A stretch of 35,559 nucleotides of DNA, from the NCBI GenBank assembly GCA_002698745.1, contig PAAD01000050.1:1-35559 (forward strand). The letters run 5' to 3'. Below are positions 11,349-23,788 of the stretch, piece by piece; position 1 is the first letter of the stretch, and the number at the start of each line of letters is the position of its first letter. The notes below the pieces were generated by a model. That model did no database searches and was not told where the DNA came from. It was given only the letters and a program-made list of their open reading frames with translations. Origin of the DNA: Flavobacteriaceae bacterium (GTDB lineage: Bacteria; Bacteroidota; Bacteroidia; Flavobacteriales; Flavobacteriaceae). The position numbers were made by a program, and so were the translations under genes.

Positions 11349-12482
11349 ATGCGAAATCATTTCTTATTAATACTACTCATACTTTTTGTTTCATGTCAAT
11401 CGTCCTCAGGTGATTATACTATAAATATTTCTGCTGATGTAGAAGATAATCACCAAATATTTCTTGTCAACTTTGATGAAAGCAATAAACCCAACGTTAT
11501 TGATACTCTCTTCGTAAAAGATGGTTTAACTTCTTATAACGGTATTTCGAAATTACCAGATTACCAATCTTTATGGGTAAACGGAGTAAGAGGATCTGTA
11601 CCAATCTTTGTAGAGCCAGGAGAAATTACAGTTGAACTTTATAAAGACAGTATTCAAGCTTCAAAAGTGAGCGGAACTAAAACAAACCTAGCCTTTAAAC
11701 GTTACATTGACGATATCAATCCATTATTTAAATCATTTTATGAAATTCAAAATGAAATGCGTAACGCGATGATTTCTCGTGACAGCTTAGCATACAAAGA
11801 TTTAGAAGACCAATTAAAAGAAATGCAAGCCAAGTTTAACTACTTCCAAATTGAGTATACGAAATCAAATCCAGACTCATATGTTTCAGCAATGGTATTG
11901 ATACAATTGGTCATGAACAAAGTAATTGATAATGAAGCAGCATATAAAATTTATAATGGCTTCAGTAAAAACATCAAAAAAACAAAATCGGCTGTAAAGA
12001 TTTATGAGCTGGTAGCTCCAAAAAAAGCTAAAGAAACAAAAGAGAACTCCAAAGATGGCGAAGTCAATGTTGGGGATAAAGCACCTGACTTTTCTGCACC
12101 TAACAACAATAATATTGCAGTTTCATTAAACAAATCACTTGGCAAATTGACTCTTTTAGATTTTTGGGCATCTTGGTGTGGCCCTTGTCGAATTGATAGT
12201 CCAAATCTTGTCAACGTACATAATAAATATAAAGATAAAGGCCTGGCTATAGTAGGTATATCACTTGACATACAAGAGAAGTCATGGAAAAAAGCCATTA
12301 TTAACGATCGTCTCGATTGGACACAGGTATCGCATTTGAAGCGTTGGGATGATCCTATTGCCTCTATGTATGGAGTTAATTCTATTCCTCAACTTTTTTT
12401 ATTGGACGAAAATGGAGTAGTAATAGCCAAGGAACGACATGCAGTAGATTTCATTCCCTTTATCGAAAAAATATTGCTTTAA
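11349..12482 (+). CDS. TlpA-like thioredoxin lipoprotein with DUF4369 domain
   Basis: The protein has 377 residues and begins with a lipoprotein signal peptide ending LFVSC, so Cys16 would be lipidated and the protein anchored in the periplasm or outer membrane. An N-terminal DUF4369 beta domain (about 20-120) and a helical linker precede a thioredoxin-fold domain (about 240-375) with FWASWCGPC; the redox Cys pair is 277 and 280. A cis-Pro follows in SIPQLFLLD. This architecture is common in Bacteroidota and is usually a periplasmic thiol-disulfide reductase, perhaps serving cytochrome or secreted-protein maturation. The specific partner is unknown. An acyltransferase gene follows after 25 bases. 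Confidence 0.93.
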   Translation: MRNHFLLILLILFVSCQSSSGDYTINISADVEDNHQIFLVNFDESNKPNVIDTLFVKDGLTSYNGISKLPDYQSLWVNGVRGSVPIFVEPGEITVELYKDSIQASKVSGTKTNLAFKRYIDDINPLFKSFYEIQNEMRNAMISRDSLAYKDLEDQLKEMQAKFNYFQIEYTKSNPDSYVSAMVLIQLVMNKVIDNEAAYKIYNGFSKNIKKTKSAVKIYELVAPKKAKETKENSKDGEVNVGDKAPDFSAPNNNNIAVSLNKSLGKLTLLDFWASWCGPCRIDSPNLVNVHNKYKDKGLAIVGISLDIQEKSWKKAIINDRLDWTQVSHLKRWDDPIASMYGVNSIPQLFLLDENGVVIAKERHAVDFIPFIEKILL

Positions 12483-12507
12483 AGCATATTCACCTATTTT
12501 AGGCTTA

Positions 12508-13389
12508 ATGGAGCGACTCACTTTTATTATCACATTTCCTTTTTTGTTGCTTATTTCATGGATGCCATTTGGAATATTATATTTATTCTCTGACATACTT
12601 TACTATTTACTTTATCATGTGGCTGGCTATCGTAAAAATGTAGTCCGTGAAAACATCAAGCTTTCTGGACTAGTTAAAACAAAAAAAGAAGCACTAGCTA
12701 TTGAAAGAAAGTTTTATCGCTATTTATGTGATTTGTTTTTGGAAATTATCAAAGTAAAGGGAATGTCAAAAAATGCCATGATGCGTCGCTTTAAATTAAC
12801 AAATCCCTCTATGTTAAAAGATTTCGCAAGAATGAATAAGTCTGTTTTTGTAATGGCAGGGCATTACGGAAATTTTGAATGGCTGTTGTCATTAGGACAT
12901 CACACCCCACACACCGCACACGGAATTTATGCACCATTGCAAAACCCCTATTTTGACAAATATTTAAAAAAGGTACGATCCTTACACGGATCTTTTCTTA
13001 TATCAAGGAAAAAGTTTCGTGAGCAATTTACTAATATGCAACATAGAAAAGAATTAACAGTTATTGGTTTTGCAGCAGATCAATCACCACAAGACAAAAA
13101 AAAGAATTACTTCCGCGACTTTTTTGGTCACGAAGTCCCTGTATTTACTGGTGCCGAACGACTAGGTAAAACGTTCGATGTACCTATTTTAATGGCAAAA
13201 GTTAGACGTATTAAAAGAGGTTATTACGAAACAACATTAAACATATTAGCCGAAAATCCTAGGACTCTCCCCGACTATGCAATTACAGACTTTTTTTACG
13301 AACAATTGGAAGCTTTAATAAAAGAAGATCCATCTTTGTACTTTTGGTCACACAATCGTTTTAAACTGATGCGACAAACTCAGCAATAA
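12508..13389 (+). CDS. Lysophospholipid / lipid A-type acyltransferase (LpxL/HtrB family)
   Basis: This 293-residue membrane-bound acyltransferase has an N-terminal hydrophobic anchor (about 5-40) followed by RKNVVRENIKLSG, the usual entry into the LpxL family. The catalytic HX4E is visible as His119 to Glu124 in GHYGNFEW. FAADQSPQ and the PVFTGAERLGK segment are further family signs. It probably transfers a secondary acyl chain to lipid A or a related lipid at the inner membrane. Exact substrate is inference. Its 3' end overlaps the opposing glmM gene by 29 bases. Confidence 0.92.
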   Translation: MERLTFIITFPFLLLISWMPFGILYLFSDILYYLLYHVAGYRKNVVRENIKLSGLVKTKKEALAIERKFYRYLCDLFLEIIKVKGMSKNAMMRRFKLTNPSMLKDFARMNKSVFVMAGHYGNFEWLLSLGHHTPHTAHGIYAPLQNPYFDKYLKKVRSLHGSFLISRKKFREQFTNMQHRKELTVIGFAADQSPQDKKKNYFRDFFGHEVPVFTGAERLGKTFDVPILMAKVRRIKRGYYETTLNILAENPRTLPDYAITDFFYEQLEALIKEDPSLYFWSHNRFKLMRQTQQ

Positions 13390-15096: not shown

Positions 15097-17922
15097 ATGA
15101 AAGATACGATTATTGTTAAGGGAACCCGAGTACACAACTTGCGAGACATCGACGTGGAGATTCCTCGAAACCAGCTTGTTGTGATTACTGGCCTTTCCGG
15201 TAGCGGAAAATCCTCTCTTGCATTTGATACTCTTTATGCCGAAGGTCAACGTCGCTACATTGAAACTTTTTCTGCTTATGCACGTCAATTTTTGGGAGCA
15301 TTAGAACGCCCTGATGTAGATAAAATTGATGGGCTATCCCCTGTCATTGCAATTGAACAGAAAACTTCAGGCAAAAGTCCACGGTCTACTGTTGGCACCA
15401 TCACTGAAATATATGACTTCTTAAGACTACTGTATGCCCGTACTGCTGACGCATACAGCTATCAAAGTCATGAAAAAATGGTGCAGTATACAGACACCGA
15501 AATTCAAGTCGCTATCGAATCGCTTTACAAAAACAAAAAAATTGCCATACTTGCCCCTATTGTACAATCACGAAAGGGTCATTACCGTGAACTATTTGCA
15601 TCTATTTTTAAGCAAGGATTTACAAGGGTGAGGACAGATGGAAAATTTGTAGAACTGGTACCTAACTTTAAACTTGATCGGTACAAAAATCACGATATTG
15701 AAATTGTTATTGATAGGGTACTTGTCAAAACGTCAAAAACTGATAGTAAGCGCTTAGCAGACAGTATAGAAACCGCCATGTATCACGGCAAAGATATGCT
15801 CATGATTTACGACTATGAAACTGAAGAGACACGCTTCTACAGTCGTAAATTAATGTGTCCAACCAGTGGAATTTCATATGCAGCTCCAGAACCCAACACT
15901 TTTTCGTTTAACTCCCCTAAGGGAATGTGTACTTCTTGTAATGGCTTGGGGGTTGTACACAAGGTAAATCATAAAAAAATCATCCCCGATACATCTATAT
16001 CTATCAAGGCTGGTGGTATTTGCCCTCTAGGAGAAGAAAAAAGTAATTGGACATTTAAGCAAATAAATAGCATCGCTCAACGCTATAACTTTTCACTTAC
16101 AGATCCTATAAAAGATATCCCAAAAGATGGTATGGAGGTTATATTAAATGGTGGTAAAGAACGCTTTTCTGTAGCGTCCAAGTCTTTAGGGATCACTAGA
16201 GATTATAGTATTGATTATGATGGCGTCATTCCATTTTTGGAACATCAATTCAATGAAGCACATTCATCTGCGCTTAAACGGTGGGCAAAAGATTTTATGG
16301 ATGAAGTCAAATGCCCTAACTGTGCTGGTGCAAGGCTCAGAAAAGAAGCTCTTTTCTTTAAAATTGGCGATAAAGGGATTGCTGATTTGACAAATATGGA
16401 TATTTTACAATTACATATTTGGATACAAGGTATTCGTTGTTCTTTAACTAAAAAACAGCTTATCATTGCAAATGAAGTTCTGATTGAAATAGAAAAACGT
16501 TTGCAGTTTCTATTAGACGTAGGGTTAGAATATCTCACTTTGAACCGCAGTGCCAAAACACTGTCTGGAGGCGAATCACAACGCATCCGTTTGGCAACAC
16601 AAATTGGAGCTCAATTGGTAGGAGTACTTTATATCTTAGATGAACCCAGTATTGGTTTACACCAACGCGACAACCAAAAACTAATTGAATCACTTATAAA
16701 ATTACGTGATATCGGCAATTCAGTAATTGTAGTAGAGCATGACAAAGATATTATGCTAAAGGCTGATTATTTAATAGATATGGGCCCTGGTGCTGGACGT
16801 CACGGCGGAAAGGTTGTGGCAGCAGATAATCCGAAACGGATTAAACAGATGGATACTGAAACAGCATCTTATTTGATGGGTAAAAAGCAAATTGAAGTTC
16901 CAAAAAAAAGACGTTTAGGAAACGGAAAAAAACTAGAATTAAAAGGCTGTAGAGGCAACAACCTCAAGCATGTAGACCTCACCATCCCACTGGGCACCAT
17001 GATTGGAGTTACTGGGGTGTCAGGTAGTGGAAAATCTACTCTGATAAACGAAACCCTCTACCCAATTCTAAACCAACATTTCTTTAGAGCCGTAAAGAAA
17101 CCCTTACCTTTCAATTCAATTAAAGGTTTGATTTACATTGATAAAGTAATTGATATCAACCAATCCCCTATTGGCCGTACTCCTCGAAGTAATCCTGTGA
17201 CTTATACAGGAATCTTTGGGGAAATTCGCCAATTGTTTACTAAAACACCAGAAGCCATGATACGTGGCTATAAGCCAGGCAGGTTTAGTTTTAATGTGAA
17301 AGGTGGCCGTTGTGAAGCTTGTCAAGGTGCAGGTGTAAAAACCATTGAAATGAATTTTTTACCTGATGTATATGTTCATTGTGATTCGTGTTATGGAAAA
17401 AGATTCAATAGAGAAACTCTTGAAATCAAGTATCGAAATAAAAATATTAGCGATATTTTGGAGATGACAATCAACGATTCATGCCGCTTTTTTGAGCCAT
17501 ATCCCAAAATTTATCGTAAATTAAAAACCATTCAAGATGTTGGATTGGGGTACATAACGCTTGGACAACAATCTACAACGCTTTCAGGTGGTGAAGCTCA
17601 ACGTATTAAGTTGGCGACCGAATTATCTAAAAAAGATACAGGACAGACGTTGTATATTTTAGATGAGCCTACAACAGGTTTACACTTCGAAGACATTCGG
17701 GTATTGATGAATGTACTAAACCGATTAGTCGATAAAGGAAATACCATGATTATCATCGAACATAATATGGATGTAATCAAGCAGATGGATCATATTATTG
17801 ATATAGGTCCTGAAGGGGGAGGAAAAGGGGGAACCATATGTTGCACTGGAACACCTGAAGAAATCATTAAAAACAAGTCTAACCATACTGCCCGTTTTTT
17901 ACGGCAGGAATTAATAAAATAA
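15097..17922 (+). CDS. uvrA: UvrA, excinuclease ABC subunit A
   Basis: UvrA scans DNA for bulky damage and loads UvrB in nucleotide excision repair. The 941-residue protein has both ABC modules: Walker A GLSGSGKS at 32-39 and GVSGSGKS at 640-647, LSGGESQRIRLA and LSGGEAQRIKLA signatures, and ILDEPSIGLH and ILDEPTTGLH Walker B motifs. The C-terminal zinc module is complete (Cys739/742 and Cys762/765). The N-terminal zinc site is not: Cys254, Ser257, Cys278, Cys281, with Ser in place of the second Cys. That may be normal in Bacteroidota. It is followed after three bases by a LOG-family gene. Confidence 0.97.
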   Translation: MKDTIIVKGTRVHNLRDIDVEIPRNQLVVITGLSGSGKSSLAFDTLYAEGQRRYIETFSAYARQFLGALERPDVDKIDGLSPVIAIEQKTSGKSPRSTVGTITEIYDFLRLLYARTADAYSYQSHEKMVQYTDTEIQVAIESLYKNKKIAILAPIVQSRKGHYRELFASIFKQGFTRVRTDGKFVELVPNFKLDRYKNHDIEIVIDRVLVKTSKTDSKRLADSIETAMYHGKDMLMIYDYETEETRFYSRKLMCPTSGISYAAPEPNTFSFNSPKGMCTSCNGLGVVHKVNHKKIIPDTSISIKAGGICPLGEEKSNWTFKQINSIAQRYNFSLTDPIKDIPKDGMEVILNGGKERFSVASKSLGITRDYSIDYDGVIPFLEHQFNEAHSSALKRWAKDFMDEVKCPNCAGARLRKEALFFKIGDKGIADLTNMDILQLHIWIQGIRCSLTKKQLIIANEVLIEIEKRLQFLLDVGLEYLTLNRSAKTLSGGESQRIRLATQIGAQLVGVLYILDEPSIGLHQRDNQKLIESLIKLRDIGNSVIVVEHDKDIMLKADYLIDMGPGAGRHGGKVVAADNPKRIKQMDTETASYLMGKKQIEVPKKRRLGNGKKLELKGCRGNNLKHVDLTIPLGTMIGVTGVSGSGKSTLINETLYPILNQHFFRAVKKPLPFNSIKGLIYIDKVIDINQSPIGRTPRSNPVTYTGIFGEIRQLFTKTPEAMIRGYKPGRFSFNVKGGRCEACQGAGVKTIEMNFLPDVYVHCDSCYGKRFNRETLEIKYRNKNISDILEMTINDSCRFFEPYPKIYRKLKTIQDVGLGYITLGQQSTTLSGGEAQRIKLATELSKKDTGQTLYILDEPTTGLHFEDIRVLMNVLNRLVDKGNTMIIIEHNMDVIKQMDHIIDIGPEGGGKGGTICCTGTPEEIIKNKSNHTARFLRQELIK

Positions 17923-17925
17923 GTC

Positions 17926-18600
17926 ATGGGAAATACATGGACAGATATGAAATCGAGTAACTCATGGTTAACCTTTAAAATTATGGGAGAATTTGTCTCG
18001 GGTTTTGAACAAATGGGGATGATAAAGCCCTGCGTATCAATATTTGGTTCAGCACGTACAAAACCCACTGAAAGTTATTATAAAGAAACTGTTGAAATTG
18101 CAGAGAAAATTGTCAAGCAAGGTTTTGGTGTTATCACGGGTGGTGGCCCTGGTCTTATGGAAGCCGCAAACAAAGGAGCGCAACAAGGAAATGGAACTTC
18201 TGTTGGACTTGTTATTGAGTTACCATTTGAACAAGACAAAAATCGTTATATTGATAATGACAAAAGGATAAATTTTGATTACTTTTTTGTGCGTAAGGTT
18301 ATGTTTATTAAATATGCACAAGCATTTGTGGTCATGCCTGGAGGTTTTGGCACACTAGACGAACTCTTTGAATCACTAACACTTATTCAAACTGAAAAAA
18401 TTAAAAAATTTCCAATCGTTTTATTTGGCTCAAAATTCTGGTCTGGTTTAATTGATTGGATTAAAAATACACTCTTATTAGAATATCAGCACATAAGTCC
18501 TGAAGACTTAGAATTAATCAAAATAGTTGATGATGTTGATGAAGCAGTAAAACACGTTTCTCAATTCCACACCAAACGAAAATTCACTACTAATTTTTAA
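17926..18600 (+). CDS. LOG family protein (TIGR00730-type nucleotide phosphoribohydrolase)
   Basis: This 224-residue Rossmann-fold protein has the lysine-decarboxylase-like LOG motifs: GGGPGLMEA at 72-80, Arg123-Lys124 in RKVMF, and PGGFGTLDE at 138-146. The family in bacteria and plants hydrolyses nucleoside 5'-monophosphates to the base and ribose 5-phosphate, producing free cytokinin-type bases in plants; old annotations as lysine decarboxylase are wrong. The natural substrate here is unknown. It lies three bases after uvrA and three bases before the next gene, so all three are likely co-transcribed. Confidence 0.92.
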   Translation: MGNTWTDMKSSNSWLTFKIMGEFVSGFEQMGMIKPCVSIFGSARTKPTESYYKETVEIAEKIVKQGFGVITGGGPGLMEAANKGAQQGNGTSVGLVIELPFEQDKNRYIDNDKRINFDYFFVRKVMFIKYAQAFVVMPGGFGTLDELFESLTLIQTEKIKKFPIVLFGSKFWSGLIDWIKNTLLLEYQHISPEDLELIKIVDDVDEAVKHVSQFHTKRKFTTNF

Positions 18601-18603
18601 ATA

Positions 18604-21336
18604 TTGCGTCAAATATTCGGTTTTTTATTATTGTTACACACTTTAGGTTATACCCAAAATAAATACGATATAAAGGTTAAATGGCATGATGTGATAGAGC
18701 CACTGGCTGTTACACAAAATATACATTGGATTAACAATAGCGATGTACCGGTAAAAACTGTTTATCTTTTGGATTGGAACCACGCCTATTCCTCTGCACG
18801 TAGTCAGCTTGGCTATTTTTTGGCGAATGAATTTGATTATAAATTGATTCGTGCCAGCAAGAAAAATCAAGGATTCACAAATATTATAGAAATTCAAAGT
18901 AACGGTCAAATGCTCAGATGGGAAAGACAACCAGAAAAACGCGAGGCCATCAAAATACATTTTGATAGTGCCATTGCACCAGACAGCTCTATTGATTTTA
19001 AAGTAAAGTACACTGTTAAACTACCAGATGCAGCTAAGTTTAAATATGGTATATCCAAAGATCAGTTATTTACCTACCATTGGCATTTGGTTTTGGGTAC
19101 TCTAAATAGGGATGGCAGTTGGCTGGCTAACACTAATTTTGGCTTTGGTAAACCCATAAGTCCACATGTAGAAGTGCGTTATCATTTTAATACAAATCAA
19201 GATTTTGAGTTACTATTACCAGCACAAAATACCACTGCAATCTCACCCTTGCTTTTAACACAGCGTAAGGATTTTCAAACAATATCTTTTGGGGACGCAA
19301 CCCTAATAACAGATATGCTTCCTGTTGATGAAACAATTGGTTTGGCGTCTCATTTAGAAAATATCGAGGCATTTATAATGCACAATTTTGAAGGCGTAAA
19401 TGCGCAAACCGTCTGGGCTTTTCAAGAGGACTACAAGTCTTATCCCTTGTTAGCACTTGAGTCAATTCCATCATTTTTAAAGGCTTTTGACAAAGCGCAA
19501 GTAGTAGAATTAAAATTGCTTAAAACTTTATTGCATTGGCATGTAGCCCATAAATATGGACAGACGGAGAAAAAATCGGACTGGATTTTAGACGGGTTAC
19601 CCAATTTTCTCTGGAACCAATATGTACAAGAGCACTACCCTAACCTACCCATGACAGGGACGTTACGCGATTTGCCATTTGTAAAAAATTATCACTTTTC
19701 TCAAGCACCTTATCATCGTAGTTGGGAGTTGTCCACCAACGTATCCACCAACAAAAATAGGGGGCAGGCGCTAACTACTCCTAAAAGAAGCCTTACTCGT
19801 TATAACCGAAGGGTAGCAAACCCTAGTCGTGCCGCTTTGGCTTTGATGTATTTAGATCATTATGTTGGTGATGGTGTTCTCAAAAATATACTAAAAGATA
19901 TTCCTAAAAATTCGATGTCAAATGCCTTTTTACAAAAGCAATTGGAGTTAATAACCGACAAACCGCTAGACTGGTTTTTTGAATATTACGTCTATTTGGA
20001 TAATAATGTGGACTTAAAACTTCAAGGAAAAAAATTGAATGCTGAAATATCGCGAATTCGAATCAGCAGTACTCACCCCGAAATAGCAATTCCAGTCAAA
20101 AAGATTTTGACCAGTGGCGCTAAGCAAACCGATTGGCTTATGAGCCAAGACCTACCCTTTGAACAAAACTATAAAAACGCTAAAGTGAAAACGTTTACTG
20201 TCAACGAAAACCACTACATCCCAGAGCAACAATTAAACAACAACACCTACCAGCTTGGTAATGGACTGTTTCGAAATAATCTGAAATTTAGGTTTCTACA
20301 AGACATATCAAAAAGCGGCACGGCATTACTGCTTTATAAACCTGAGTTTGCCTACAATTATTATGATGGACTGCTTGGCGGTATTTCAATAGCTAACAGC
20401 AGTATTCTAGCCAATAAATATCGCTTTAAATTAAGTCCTCAATATGGTGTTAAACGACAACAAATAAGTGGTATGGGCTATATGATAGCGGATTTTTACA
20501 ACGAAAATAGCAGTCATCATTTAACCCGAATTAACCTGTTTGGCTCTTCGTATCATTATGCGCCCCAATTGCGTTATACTGTTTTTACTCCTTCATTGAT
20601 ATTTTATTTCCGTCCAAAGGGGATTCAAAACAAACAACGCGCATCATTGCAAATACGTCACGTATCAGTACGATTAGATGATTTGCCATTAGAAGACGAA
20701 CGAAGGGGATATGGCGTAAGCTTGGCTAGTTTTGAATCTCGAAAAGGTACCGCATTGGATAATTTCTCATACAAGATTGAAGCACAAATGTCACGTAATT
20801 TTAAAAAACTAAGCTTTGATAGTGAATACATTACTTATTACGGCCCCAACAGAAGGTGGACAATGCGGATATTTGCAGGAACATTCTTATCCAATAATGC
20901 AAACGACAGCTATTATGATTTTAACGTATCTCGTGTTAATGATTATTTATTTCAATACGACCTCTATGGGCGTTCAGAAGCAGATGGCTTTTTCAGTCAA
21001 CAATACATTAAAGCCGAGGGAGCACTACGCACTACAGGCAACCTAACAAGCGCTAACCAATGGCTAATGACCGCCCAATCGGCTATAACCATCTGGAGAT
21101 GGATTGAGGGATACGCCGAAATTGGCTGGGTCAAAAGCAATTTTAAAACACCCGAAACCCATTGGGGTACTGGTATAACCCTTAATCTAGTTCCGGACTT
21201 TTTTGAAGTACATTTCCCCATTTACAATTCGAATGGCGCTATTTACACAAACAACGCCTATCCCAAACACATACGTTTTCAATTATCCCTACGCCCAGCC
21301 TCTCTGGCTAAGCTATTTTCACGAAGTTGGTTCTAA
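18604..21336 (+). CDS. M1-like peptidase fold fused to a C-terminal outer-membrane beta-barrel, probably inactive zinc site
   Basis: This 910-residue exported protein has a Sec signal peptide (about 1-17, IFGFLLLLHTLGYTQ). The region to about 480 resembles gluzincin/M1 aminopeptidases: an N-terminal beta domain with KVKYTVKLPD, then a helical core. Where HExxH is expected the sequence is WHVAH at 312-316, followed by WILDGLPNFLW with Asp330 where the third ligand would be, so zinc binding is likely lost. From about 560 to the end, alternating beta strands and a terminal Phe (RSWF) suggest an outer-membrane barrel. The start is TTG, because no ATG lies before the signal peptide. It is third in the uvrA operon. 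The family assignment is from recall and fold-like cues, so moderate. Confidence 0.65.
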   Translation: MRQIFGFLLLLHTLGYTQNKYDIKVKWHDVIEPLAVTQNIHWINNSDVPVKTVYLLDWNHAYSSARSQLGYFLANEFDYKLIRASKKNQGFTNIIEIQSNGQMLRWERQPEKREAIKIHFDSAIAPDSSIDFKVKYTVKLPDAAKFKYGISKDQLFTYHWHLVLGTLNRDGSWLANTNFGFGKPISPHVEVRYHFNTNQDFELLLPAQNTTAISPLLLTQRKDFQTISFGDATLITDMLPVDETIGLASHLENIEAFIMHNFEGVNAQTVWAFQEDYKSYPLLALESIPSFLKAFDKAQVVELKLLKTLLHWHVAHKYGQTEKKSDWILDGLPNFLWNQYVQEHYPNLPMTGTLRDLPFVKNYHFSQAPYHRSWELSTNVSTNKNRGQALTTPKRSLTRYNRRVANPSRAALALMYLDHYVGDGVLKNILKDIPKNSMSNAFLQKQLELITDKPLDWFFEYYVYLDNNVDLKLQGKKLNAEISRIRISSTHPEIAIPVKKILTSGAKQTDWLMSQDLPFEQNYKNAKVKTFTVNENHYIPEQQLNNNTYQLGNGLFRNNLKFRFLQDISKSGTALLLYKPEFAYNYYDGLLGGISIANSSILANKYRFKLSPQYGVKRQQISGMGYMIADFYNENSSHHLTRINLFGSSYHYAPQLRYTVFTPSLIFYFRPKGIQNKQRASLQIRHVSVRLDDLPLEDERRGYGVSLASFESRKGTALDNFSYKIEAQMSRNFKKLSFDSEYITYYGPNRRWTMRIFAGTFLSNNANDSYYDFNVSRVNDYLFQYDLYGRSEADGFFSQQYIKAEGALRTTGNLTSANQWLMTAQSAITIWRWIEGYAEIGWVKSNFKTPETHWGTGITLNLVPDFFEVHFPIYNSNGAIYTNNAYPKHIRFQLSLRPASLAKLFSRSWF

Positions 21337-21379: not shown

Positions 21380-23788
21380 ATGAAATCAGTCAACCTAGCT
21401 TCATCTAAAGGCACCTTAAAAGATTTTAAGTCGGATGTACTTAACGATTACTACATTGCGGCACTCAGCCGTCAGATAAGTATTTTAGGTAGAAAAGAAG
21501 TGCTTTCTGGCAAAGGGAAGTTTGGAATTTTTGGCGACGGTAAAGAGCTCGCACAAATTGCCATGGCGAAAGTTTTTAAAAACGGCGATTACAGATCGGG
21601 ATATTATCGTGATCAGACCTTTATGATGTCTATTGGTGGATTAAAGCCTGAACATATATTTGCTAGCGTCTACGGCCATGCCGATCATATTGCAGAACCC
21701 ATGTCTTCTGGTAGACAAATGGTGGGACATTTTAATACCGACACGCTGGATAGTGAGGGTAATCTACTGCCATTGGTCGAATCAAAAAATTCCTTTTCTG
21801 ACGTTTCTTGTACCGCTGCACAAATGCCAAGGCTTCTGGGCTTGGCACACGCCTCCAAGTTGTTTCGAAAGGTAGCCTCCATGAGAGATGAAAACCTCTC
21901 TCACCAAGGAAACGAAGTTGCTTGGGGCACAATTGGAAATGCCAGCACAAGCGAAGGGTTGTTTTTTGAAACGCTTAATGCCGCAGGTGTATTGCAAGTG
22001 CCCATGATCATCAGTGTATGGGACGATGGATACGGTATATCGGTAGACAACGCATTTCAAACCGTTAAAGAAAGTATTTCAGAGGCGATGCGCGGCATGC
22101 AACGCAATGATGATAAGAGGGGTATTGAAATTATTGAAGTAGCCGGTTGGAACTACCCTGCCCTAGTTGAAGCCTATACACGCGCCAGTGAGATGGCACG
22201 AATCGCTCACGTTCCTGTGTTGATTCATGTCCAAGAACTTACTCAACCCCTAGGGCATTCAACTTCTGGGTCACACGAGCGTTACAAATCCGAAACGCGC
22301 TTGCAATGGGAAAAAGAATTTGACTGTAACCTAACCTTTAGGAACTGGATAATAGAAAAGAAAGTAGCAACTCAAGATGAACTTAGTGCCCTTGAAGAAA
22401 AGGCAACAACAGCTGCTAAAGTAGCTAAAACTACTTCCTGGAATGCCTATTTAGCTCATATTGAAGAAGAACGACAAGAAGCACAACAATTAGCGCAAGC
22501 AATTATTGTAAACGCACAAGATTCGGATGCACTTGTGCACATTACTAAGGTGTTATCCAAGAAAAATTTACCTTTCCGTAAAACGATCTATGCGGCTGTC
22601 CGTGAACTCCTATGGCTCACACGCAGCACCCCAACAGCTAATAGAAAGGTATTGCAGGATTGGTGGCATAGAAAACAAAAAAACACGCAGACGATTTACA
22701 GCGATAAACTTTACAACGAATACAATAACTCCTCCTTAAATGTTGCGTGCATTCCTGCCATGTACAACGAAGATTCGATTCTTGTTGACGGACGGGTGGT
22801 ATTGCGAGACAATTTTAATGCTTTATTGGAACAATATCCCAAGCTTTTGATATTTGGTGAAGACAGTGGCAAGATAGGCGATGTGAATCAAGGTTTAGAA
22901 GGGCTTCAAGCACGCTATGGCGAAGAACGTGTGGCTGACCGTGGCATTCGTGAAGCTACCATTATTGGCGAAGGTATTGGTATGGCTTTTCGTGGTCTAA
23001 GGCCTATTGCTGAAATACAATATTTAGATTATGTCCTTTATGCACTGCAGATAATGAGTGATGATTTGGCCACACTCCACTACCGCACACGTGGCAAGCA
23101 ACGTGCACCCCTTATTATTCGTACTCGTGGCCACCGCTTAGAAGGTATCTGGCATTCGGGCTCTCCCATGGGTGGTTTGGTAAGTTTGCTTCGTGGTATA
23201 TTTATAATGGTTCCTCGTAACCTTACTCAGGCTAGTGGGATCTACAATACCCTCCTTCAAGGTCAAGATCCTGCTTTGGTCATTGAACCACTCAATGGCT
23301 ACCGTTTAAAAGAAAAAAAACCTGAAAATCTTGGTGAATTTACAGTTCCTCTTGGTATTGCTGAACAACTACGTACTGGAAATGATATTACTATGGTCTC
23401 CTATGGATCTACGCTCCGACTGGTTGAGGAAGCTGCTGAAACCTTGGCACAAATGCACATTACATCAGACGTAATAGATGTACAATCGCTAATTCCTTTT
23501 GATTCCACCAATATTATTGGCGCAAGTGTAGAAAAAACAAACCGACTGTTGATTGTTGATGAAGATGTTCCTGGTGGTGGTACGGCTTATATCCTAAGTC
23601 AGTTGTTGGAAAACCAAGACATTTATCCTCATTTGGATAGCCAACCCAGCTTACTAACAGCTAAAGACCATCGACCTGCCTATGGCACAGATGGAGATTA
23701 TTTTTCTAAACCATCTAAAGAAGATATTGTGGAAGCTGCCTATAACATTATTCACGAGGCGAACCCGAATCAATACCCTGCACTCTAA
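21380..23788 (+). CDS. 2-oxoacid dehydrogenase E1, fused alpha and beta subunits
   Basis: This 802-residue thiamine diphosphate enzyme joins E1 alpha (about 20-430) and E1 beta (about 455-802) of a branched-chain or pyruvate-type 2-oxoacid dehydrogenase. The alpha part shows RDQTFMMSIG, the GHFNT region and GNASTSEG at 186-193 followed by WDDGYGIS at 214-221. The beta part shows GEDSGKIGDVNQG, ADRGIREATIIGEGIGMA, HSGSPMG and a transketolase-C-like domain with IVDEDVPGGG. Normal enzymes have GDG or GEG and NNGYAIS at the TPP/Mg site; here these read GNA and DDGYGIS. The open frame extends upstream to 21203, but that is inside the preceding gene. Some database relatives are misnamed tungsten formylmethanofuran dehydrogenase. 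Confidence 0.9.
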   Translation: MKSVNLASSKGTLKDFKSDVLNDYYIAALSRQISILGRKEVLSGKGKFGIFGDGKELAQIAMAKVFKNGDYRSGYYRDQTFMMSIGGLKPEHIFASVYGHADHIAEPMSSGRQMVGHFNTDTLDSEGNLLPLVESKNSFSDVSCTAAQMPRLLGLAHASKLFRKVASMRDENLSHQGNEVAWGTIGNASTSEGLFFETLNAAGVLQVPMIISVWDDGYGISVDNAFQTVKESISEAMRGMQRNDDKRGIEIIEVAGWNYPALVEAYTRASEMARIAHVPVLIHVQELTQPLGHSTSGSHERYKSETRLQWEKEFDCNLTFRNWIIEKKVATQDELSALEEKATTAAKVAKTTSWNAYLAHIEEERQEAQQLAQAIIVNAQDSDALVHITKVLSKKNLPFRKTIYAAVRELLWLTRSTPTANRKVLQDWWHRKQKNTQTIYSDKLYNEYNNSSLNVACIPAMYNEDSILVDGRVVLRDNFNALLEQYPKLLIFGEDSGKIGDVNQGLEGLQARYGEERVADRGIREATIIGEGIGMAFRGLRPIAEIQYLDYVLYALQIMSDDLATLHYRTRGKQRAPLIIRTRGHRLEGIWHSGSPMGGLVSLLRGIFIMVPRNLTQASGIYNTLLQGQDPALVIEPLNGYRLKEKKPENLGEFTVPLGIAEQLRTGNDITMVSYGSTLRLVEEAAETLAQMHITSDVIDVQSLIPFDSTNIIGASVEKTNRLLIVDEDVPGGGTAYILSQLLENQDIYPHLDSQPSLLTAKDHRPAYGTDGDYFSKPSKEDIVEAAYNIIHEANPNQYPAL

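Follow-up and report, generated by a model that had tools for sequence, protein, structure and literature searches.

The question raised by this locus is what a protein built like a zinc peptidase joined to a membrane barrel might be doing once the residues that should hold the zinc are gone. The window is the whole 35,559-nucleotide stretch analysed here (contig PAAD01000050.1 of a Flavobacteriaceae bacterium, assembly GCA_002698745.1), and the gene in question lies at 18604..21336 of its forward strand. The original prediction, made from the letters alone, described a fusion of an M1-type peptidase and a beta-barrel with a destroyed zinc motif. Our comparison with relatives suggests, at a probability of roughly 0.6, that the protein is a pseudopeptidase: an M1 peptidase-barrel fusion that has lost both its zinc site and its catalytic Tyr, and whose dead domain would bind or scaffold. 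The parts of the gene referred to below are as follows.

18604..21336, forward strand: putative pseudo-M1 peptidase / C-terminal beta-barrel protein, 910 amino acids, TTG start.
18661..19353, forward strand: N-terminal beta domain, residues 20-250, from the profile-profile alignment, with an equivalent in active M1+barrel homologues; limits approximate.
19354..19998, forward strand: M1-like (gluzincin-like) domain, residues 251-465, zinc site broken, from hhalign and the PF01433 and PDB matches of active homologues.
19522..19536, forward strand: K307-T-L-L-H311, the HExxH position, from the profile-profile alignment.
19537..19551, forward strand: W312-H-V-A-H316, aligned with N-W-F-Y-G directly after HExxH in active-type proteins.
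19591..19593, forward strand: D330 (in DGLPNF), the third zinc ligand position, from the alignment.
19822..19824, forward strand: P407, the catalytic Tyr position, from the alignment.
20209..21333, forward strand: C-terminal beta domain, residues 536-910, a probable outer-membrane beta-barrel ending Trp-Phe and the most constrained part, from alternation, dN/dS (the ratio of nonsynonymous to synonymous substitution rates) and conserved columns.

The TTG start is also kept in the close relatives L003, L004 and L009, and the N-terminus of the 910-residue protein carries a segment that resembles a signal peptide when judged by eye. Matches to the window protein were found in 48 of 60 genomes, its own included. 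From 34 Flavobacteriaceae proteins a profile (A1) was made; run against Viral_contigs, it produced 59 pattern matches, none of them a relative. Four order-level relatives that carry GMEYP together with HExxH...E align with the window protein over its whole length, C-terminal domain included, in an alignment of 49 loci. When A1 was aligned by hhalign with a profile of four HExxH-bearing full-length order-level homologues (A2), the alignment ran across 927 columns with an E of 9e-111, a full-length homology to active-type proteins that bears out the M1-type ancestry originally proposed. The four A2 proteins match Peptidase_M1 (PF01433) at E 2.6e-14 to 1.5e-21, and a PDB search with the A2 profile returns 91 sequences at E<=0.01; all 60 that were listed bear the names of aminopeptidases, tricorn interacting factor F3 or leukotriene A4 hydrolases. 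The A1 profile reaches 3q7j only (E 0.86) in the PDB, and 17 of its 34 members reach PF01433 at E<=1 (best 4.7e-07), while families that look like chance hits match 1-4 members each. Because of these PF01433 and PDB matches of the relatives and the A1-A2 alignment, we regard the M1 ancestry of the window protein as secure by sequence comparison, though it is not visible from the window protein alone. The protein shares with M1 peptidases (PF01433; aminopeptidase N, leukotriene A4 hydrolase, the cold-active 3cia) an N-terminal beta domain followed by a catalytic-like domain, in a register without gaps through HExxH-x18-E and the W327 anchor. It differs in having replaced the first His, the catalytic Glu, the third-ligand Glu, the catalytic Tyr and the GMEYP-type motif, with H311 staying, and in carrying an additional beta domain of about 375 residues behind. 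A separate M1 gene with HEIGH and GMEYP is present in the window's own genome (L001) and matches only the N-terminal part of the M1+barrel profile.

In the profile-profile alignment HExxH falls on K307-T308-L309-L310-H311, five residues before the WHVAH string that had been taken for its equivalent. The string itself is present at 312-316; the equivalence is ruled out by the alignment, in which positions 302-331 are gapless in 88/88 Flavobacteriaceae rows with HExxH in register with KTLLH. Since WHxxH follows the site in just two of these 88 rows (the window protein and its sister L003), WHVAH is a chance local string. From H311 to D330 there are 19 residues, matching the HExxH-x18-E spacing, and the placing of D330 in DGLPNF at the third-ligand column, which the original prediction had made, holds in the alignment: the column is Glu in 43 of 43 active rows. 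Here and below, active-type means that HExxH-x18-E is present, a label given by sequence and not by measured activity. Lys replaces the first zinc His in 86 of the 88 Flavobacteriaceae genes, and H311 occupies the second-ligand column, where His is not conserved (30/88). The catalytic Tyr column holds Tyr in 50/50 active-type rows and in none of the 88 Flavobacteriaceae, the window protein having P407. At the position of the relatives' xGMEYP, which we take to be a GxMEN-type exopeptidase motif, the window protein reads LALESIP; G.MEYP occurs in 0/88 Flavobacteriaceae rows, and the Met column of the motif is Met in 43/43 active-type rows and does not have Met among the common residues of 46 clade rows. 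With K307 and D330 at ligand columns and HExxH missing from all 88 genes, the zinc motif is indeed destroyed. Position 330 is Asp or Glu in 75 of the 88 rows and is joined by Lys at 307 in 74, twelve rows having the Lys without the acid, while columns 308 and 311 vary freely. The first-His and third-ligand positions of zincins bind the same zinc, and for that reason we would guess that a Lys307-Asp/Glu330 salt bridge linking the two helices has taken the place of the metal.

To place this loss, all distinct genes were counted for the motif (n=161, of which 88 Flavobacteriaceae). Excluded before counting were L006 and L007, which are the same genes as L003 and L004, and L059 and L100-L112, whose proteins are identical to ones already included. 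The trimmed repeats L114, L115 and L122 (of L023, L033 and L021) stand outside the counts of 88 and 161 and inside the 100 clade rows used further below, and rows L113-L142 are cut on the N-terminal side by locus ends. HExxH is found in 0 of the 88 Flavobacteriaceae genes, whereas HExxH-x18-E is found in 39 of 40 class-level loci, which represent 40 families. In the other families of the order the motif is present in 11 of 33 genes, with active-type members in f4 (1/1), f6 (1/1), f11 (4/4), f14 (2/2) and f7 (3/15) and none among the ten genes of f2, f3, f5, f12 and f13 together. These results rule out a decay confined to the window's genome; the loss is family-wide. Because 39 of the 40 class-level members keep HExxH-x18-E, the intact M1+barrel protein is the likely ancestor. 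The active-type Bacteroidia proteins (for example L063, L064 and L060) have the same full-length architecture of about 1000 amino acids as the window protein, and they differ from it in an intact site, mostly HEVGH (34/40), with GGMEYP in 30/40. The one class-level member without HExxH, L090 (genome G186, family f42), has RMVAN at the site and still adjoins a TlpA-like gene.

A profile of the C-terminal domain (A5) matched in 202 of 296 class genomes, 85 of 146 order genomes and 196 of 199 Flavobacteriaceae genomes, each of the three samples including genomes from the window's family. The window protein is one of the A5 rows, which makes its own E of 1.2e-152 circular; independently of A5, full-length phmmer and hhalign include the C-terminal part. 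The three Flavobacteriaceae genomes without a match (G354, G488 and G530, two of them in genus g206) are candidate natural losses. The same counts bear on the concern that the true Flavobacteriaceae orthologue keeps HExxH and that the window gene is a side copy. Other M1 genes are present in the same genomes, three f7 genomes (G573, G637 and G630; loci L156, L158 and L160) each hold an active-type and an inactive M1+barrel gene, and G377 and G523 each have a second barrel-profile match, which may be a copy or a fragment. Against this, the barrel match is single in 194 of the 196 genomes, at most nine candidates having been scored per genome in the family sample; among the matches listed, other M1 proteins match only the N-terminal part of A2; and the tree, with an E1 neighbour shared across the divide, points to the active-type order-level genes as orthologues. 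On the single match, the tree and the shared neighbour we judge such a confusion of paralogues very improbable. The active-type f7 copies group with class-level genes outside the order's group, on long branches and with a support of 80 for their exact place, and another lineage of the class may be the source of these second copies.

To keep the lost site from influencing the trees, only the C-terminal domain was used to build them; the method was a quick one, and branches are long in places. In the first tree 47 inactive rows, the window protein included, form one branch with a Shimodaira-Hasegawa-like approximate likelihood ratio (SH-aLRT) support of 99, and in a tree of a second sample, for which 81 of 164 rows were used, 36 inactive rows again form one branch with an SH-aLRT of 99. 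By parsimony the active or inactive label needs four changes in either tree, against about 31 and about 25 when labels are shuffled; supported branches force at least two. The approximately unbiased (AU) test does not reject a grouping of the order's 49 inactive rows in a single clade (p 0.363), so that anything from one loss upwards within the order would fit. L090, outside the order, is a further and separate loss.

The two halves of the protein have been constrained differently on the two sides of this loss. Among pairs of proteins whose barrels are 0.30-0.35 identical, mean identity of the peptidase half is 0.515 for active-type pairs (n=208) and 0.265 for inactive pairs (n=408), and that of the N-terminal domain is 0.546 and 0.230, the pairs not being independent and the partial L020 being omitted here and from the terminal-residue comparison given below. 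In 50 active-type rows, 35 columns of the peptidase half, 49 of the N-terminal domain and 13 of the barrel are at least 95% fixed; of these, 26, 32 and 0 respectively are no longer conserved in the majority of 100 clade rows. The statement that the rest of the core seemed intact does not survive this comparison, while retention of the C-terminal beta domain is borne out, all 13 fixed barrel columns of the active-type proteins being kept in the window's clade. In the active-type proteins the peptidase half is more conserved than the barrel, and the order of constraint is reversed in the inactive lineage, where the barrel is the better conserved.

Such a reversal is what favours the view of the peptidase half as a relic, a former enzyme tolerated as a periplasmic appendage to a barrel that alone is functional; the many lost columns agree with it, as does a frame break near residue 190-200 in L181 (genome G492), which is either a mutation or a sequencing error. 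The peptidase half is, however, kept: none of the 111 distinct inactive rows has fewer than 80% of its columns filled, in a deep group that includes genomes of 1.1-1.7 Mb, and W327, Y340, P346, N401 and W457 are still at least 95% fixed across the inactive clade. Across 15 pairs drawn from six close relatives, dN/dS ranges over 0.044-0.201 in the peptidase half and 0.034-0.068 in the barrel, values to be read with the caution that dS is high or saturated in several pairs and that the pairs share branches; for residues 466-535 dS is saturated and gives no ratio. Both halves are under purifying selection, and we consider the relic unlikely. The column losses, dN/dS and column filling indicate that catalytic constraint has gone, that the fold is still selected and that the barrel is the core of the function.

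Purifying selection on the peptidase half would equally be expected if catalysis continued by non-canonical means, either with a metal bound at some other place or with the old cleft working as a hydrolase or transferase of a different mechanism; Lys (86/88) and Asp/Glu330 (75/88) could then serve as reactive residues. In the 88 Flavobacteriaceae rows we found no invariant His or Cys column that could form a replacement metal site: the best His column, near residue 364, reaches 67/88 and no Cys column reaches 40%. A metal site elsewhere in the protein is therefore not supported, and the free variation of columns 308 and 311 also speaks against chemistry at the old site. This alternative is improbable, and more so than the relic.

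The sequence of the C-terminal domain is most plausibly read as that of an outer-membrane barrel. Its hydrophobicity alternates with period 2 (z 3.3 in the clade, 4.1 in the active-type rows and 1.8 in the window protein alone), while the peptidase half gives z -0.3 in the clade and in the active-type rows; the window protein ends in F, and F or Y is terminal in 43 of 46 clade rows. Several observations weigh against the barrel or against the pseudopeptidase reading as a whole. The N-terminal beta domain also alternates (z 2.8 and 1.7), so that the signal marks beta structure and not a barrel as such; a terminal F or Y is found in only 10 of 43 active-type rows; and the barrel profile has 0 PDB matches at E<=10. 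The window protein alone matches nothing in Pfam or NCBIfam (E<=1) or the PDB (E<=10), and the other 17 of the 34 A1 members lack a PF01433 match even at E<=1. Single site residues also persist within Flavobacteriaceae, namely the second-column His already given, the third-ligand Glu in 7/88 and the catalytic Glu in 1/88, and to these are added the broken frame of L181 and the saturation of dS. Structure prediction, for which only three near-identical sequences were usable, gave a mean predicted local distance difference test (pLDDT) score of 37.3 and a predicted template modelling (pTM) score of 0.29 for residues 19-540, and a mean pLDDT of 27.9 for the barrel half, both models being poor and given no weight here.

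Taken together with the losses described above, the pseudopeptidase reading would run as follows. The ancestor would be a Bacteroidia envelope protein that combined an active M1 zinc peptidase with an outer-membrane barrel at its C-terminus, and members with an intact site would still be enzymes. In the lineage to which Flavobacteriaceae and allied families belong, this protein would have lost the zinc site and the catalytic Tyr, with strong constraint persisting on its barrel. The M1-like domain would be periplasmic, at the inner face of the outer membrane, since a barrel with both termini in the periplasm would leave the domain that precedes it on that side, and the dead domain would bind a protein, peptide or glycan, or act as a plug or scaffold beside the barrel, and would not cut. 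Metallopeptidase pseudopeptidases are known that lose metal or catalytic residues, keep the fold and bind or scaffold, according to the portions of a review that deal with them (PMC11266112), and the window protein resembles these in the loss of catalytic residues with the fold retained. The main text of that review contains none of the terms 'M1 family', 'family M1', 'TAF2' or 'outer membrane', and to that extent the window protein differs from them in family and place.

The neighbouring genes on the forward strand are these.

15097..17922, forward strand: uvrA, the upstream neighbour (Pfam), which is context and not a shown functional partner.
17926..18600, forward strand: LOG-family gene (Lysine_decarbox / TIGR00730), 3 bases upstream of the pseudo-M1 gene (Pfam, NCBIfam).
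21380..23788, forward strand: E1 dehydrogenase/transketolase-like gene, the downstream neighbour (Pfam).

The stop of the LOG gene ends at 18600, leaving 3 bases before the pseudo-M1 gene. Both this spacing and the position of uvrA before LOG were correctly noted by the original prediction; its description of the placement as unusual does not hold, since each of the 13 Flavobacteriaceae loci retrieved together with their surroundings has LOG upstream in the same orientation. Because the uvrA-LOG neighbourhood is a common Flavobacteriaceae arrangement, it is not evidence of a link to DNA repair. The E1 gene is next downstream in 11 of these 13 loci and also follows L109, an active-type gene of f4, and L108, an inactive gene of f12, while the f5 locus L059 has neither LOG nor E1 as a neighbour. 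The shared E1 gene supports orthology of the active-type and inactive genes, and since it is common to active-type L109 and to inactive genes, it suggests that relocation to the E1 neighbourhood preceded loss of the site.

Of the 40 class-level loci, 18 have a TlpA-like gene immediately upstream and 22 an LpxH-like gene immediately downstream. Some of these loci are truncated at contig ends, the neighbours were named from L063 and from BLAST clusters, and the LpxH-like match scores under NCBI's cut-off. These neighbours, too, distinguish the active-type proteins from that of the window. The order gatB, TlpA-like, M1+barrel, LpxH-like is frequent there (L060-L099). In genome G049 (family f14, L151) gatB and the TlpA-like and LpxH-like genes stand together without the M1+barrel gene between them, that gene being elsewhere in the genome, as expected if it moved away within the order. 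At 11349-13389 of the window a DUF4369/TlpA-like gene immediately precedes one for a lipid A acyltransferase; by phmmer the TlpA-like gene matches the TlpA-like neighbour of many class-level M1+barrel genes.

The LpxH-like (lipid A) gene that directly follows 22 of the 40 class-level relatives, the probable envelope location and the near-universal presence are also what would be expected of an accessory subunit of the outer-membrane protein assembly machinery, BAM- or TAM-like. The sections of PMC12611786 on the Flavobacterium johnsoniae BAM complex give its members as BamA, D, G, H, M and P and its transmembrane accessory subunit as BamG. BamG resembles the window protein as an integral outer-membrane barrel protein conserved in Bacteroidota and differs, as those sections describe it, in belonging to the FadL family, with a long N-terminal tail and no M1-like domain. 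Neither PMC12611786 nor PMC12578637 uses the word 'peptidase' in its main text. A role as a BAM subunit is unsupported by the subunit descriptions in the parts of these two papers concerned with them, which give other folds, the comparison being by description only; we hold the accessory-subunit explanation to be slightly less probable even than continued catalysis.

The pseudopeptidase reading leads to a larger and more tentative proposal, which we regard as possible and well short of probable: the disarmed peptidase would be a near-universal Flavobacteriaceae outer-membrane factor in which the K307-Asp/Glu330 salt bridge replaces the metal, the dead cleft recognises a peptide, lipoprotein or glycan, and the domain feeds or gates the barrel. 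If so, the active-type relatives would be the same machine with its cutter, an undescribed class of outer-membrane-anchored M1 peptidase. Among the papers listed in a survey of the open-access literature, judged by title and start of abstract, none describes the M1+barrel family or gives a name for it, which is weak evidence of novelty. Two points appear to be undescribed in that literature, namely the Bacteroidia M1+beta-domain family and its conversion to a pseudopeptidase in Flavobacteriaceae. The original prediction had picked out a real pseudopeptidase, with the motif placed five residues off and a scope that was too local; of greater interest are how widespread the active-type M1+barrel family is and how thoroughly it has been disarmed in Flavobacteriaceae.

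Because the residues for cutting have been lost and yet nearly every sampled species retains the gene, the Flavobacteriaceae protein probably has a different, undiscovered job in the cell envelope, and its presence in 196 of 199 family genomes, small genomes included, argues for that envelope role being an important one. The pseudopeptidase reading, if true, would put a name to a conserved Flavobacteriaceae envelope gene of unassigned role, and it would provide a natural before-and-after series of an envelope enzyme becoming a non-catalytic part, with both types of orthologue preserved in one order.

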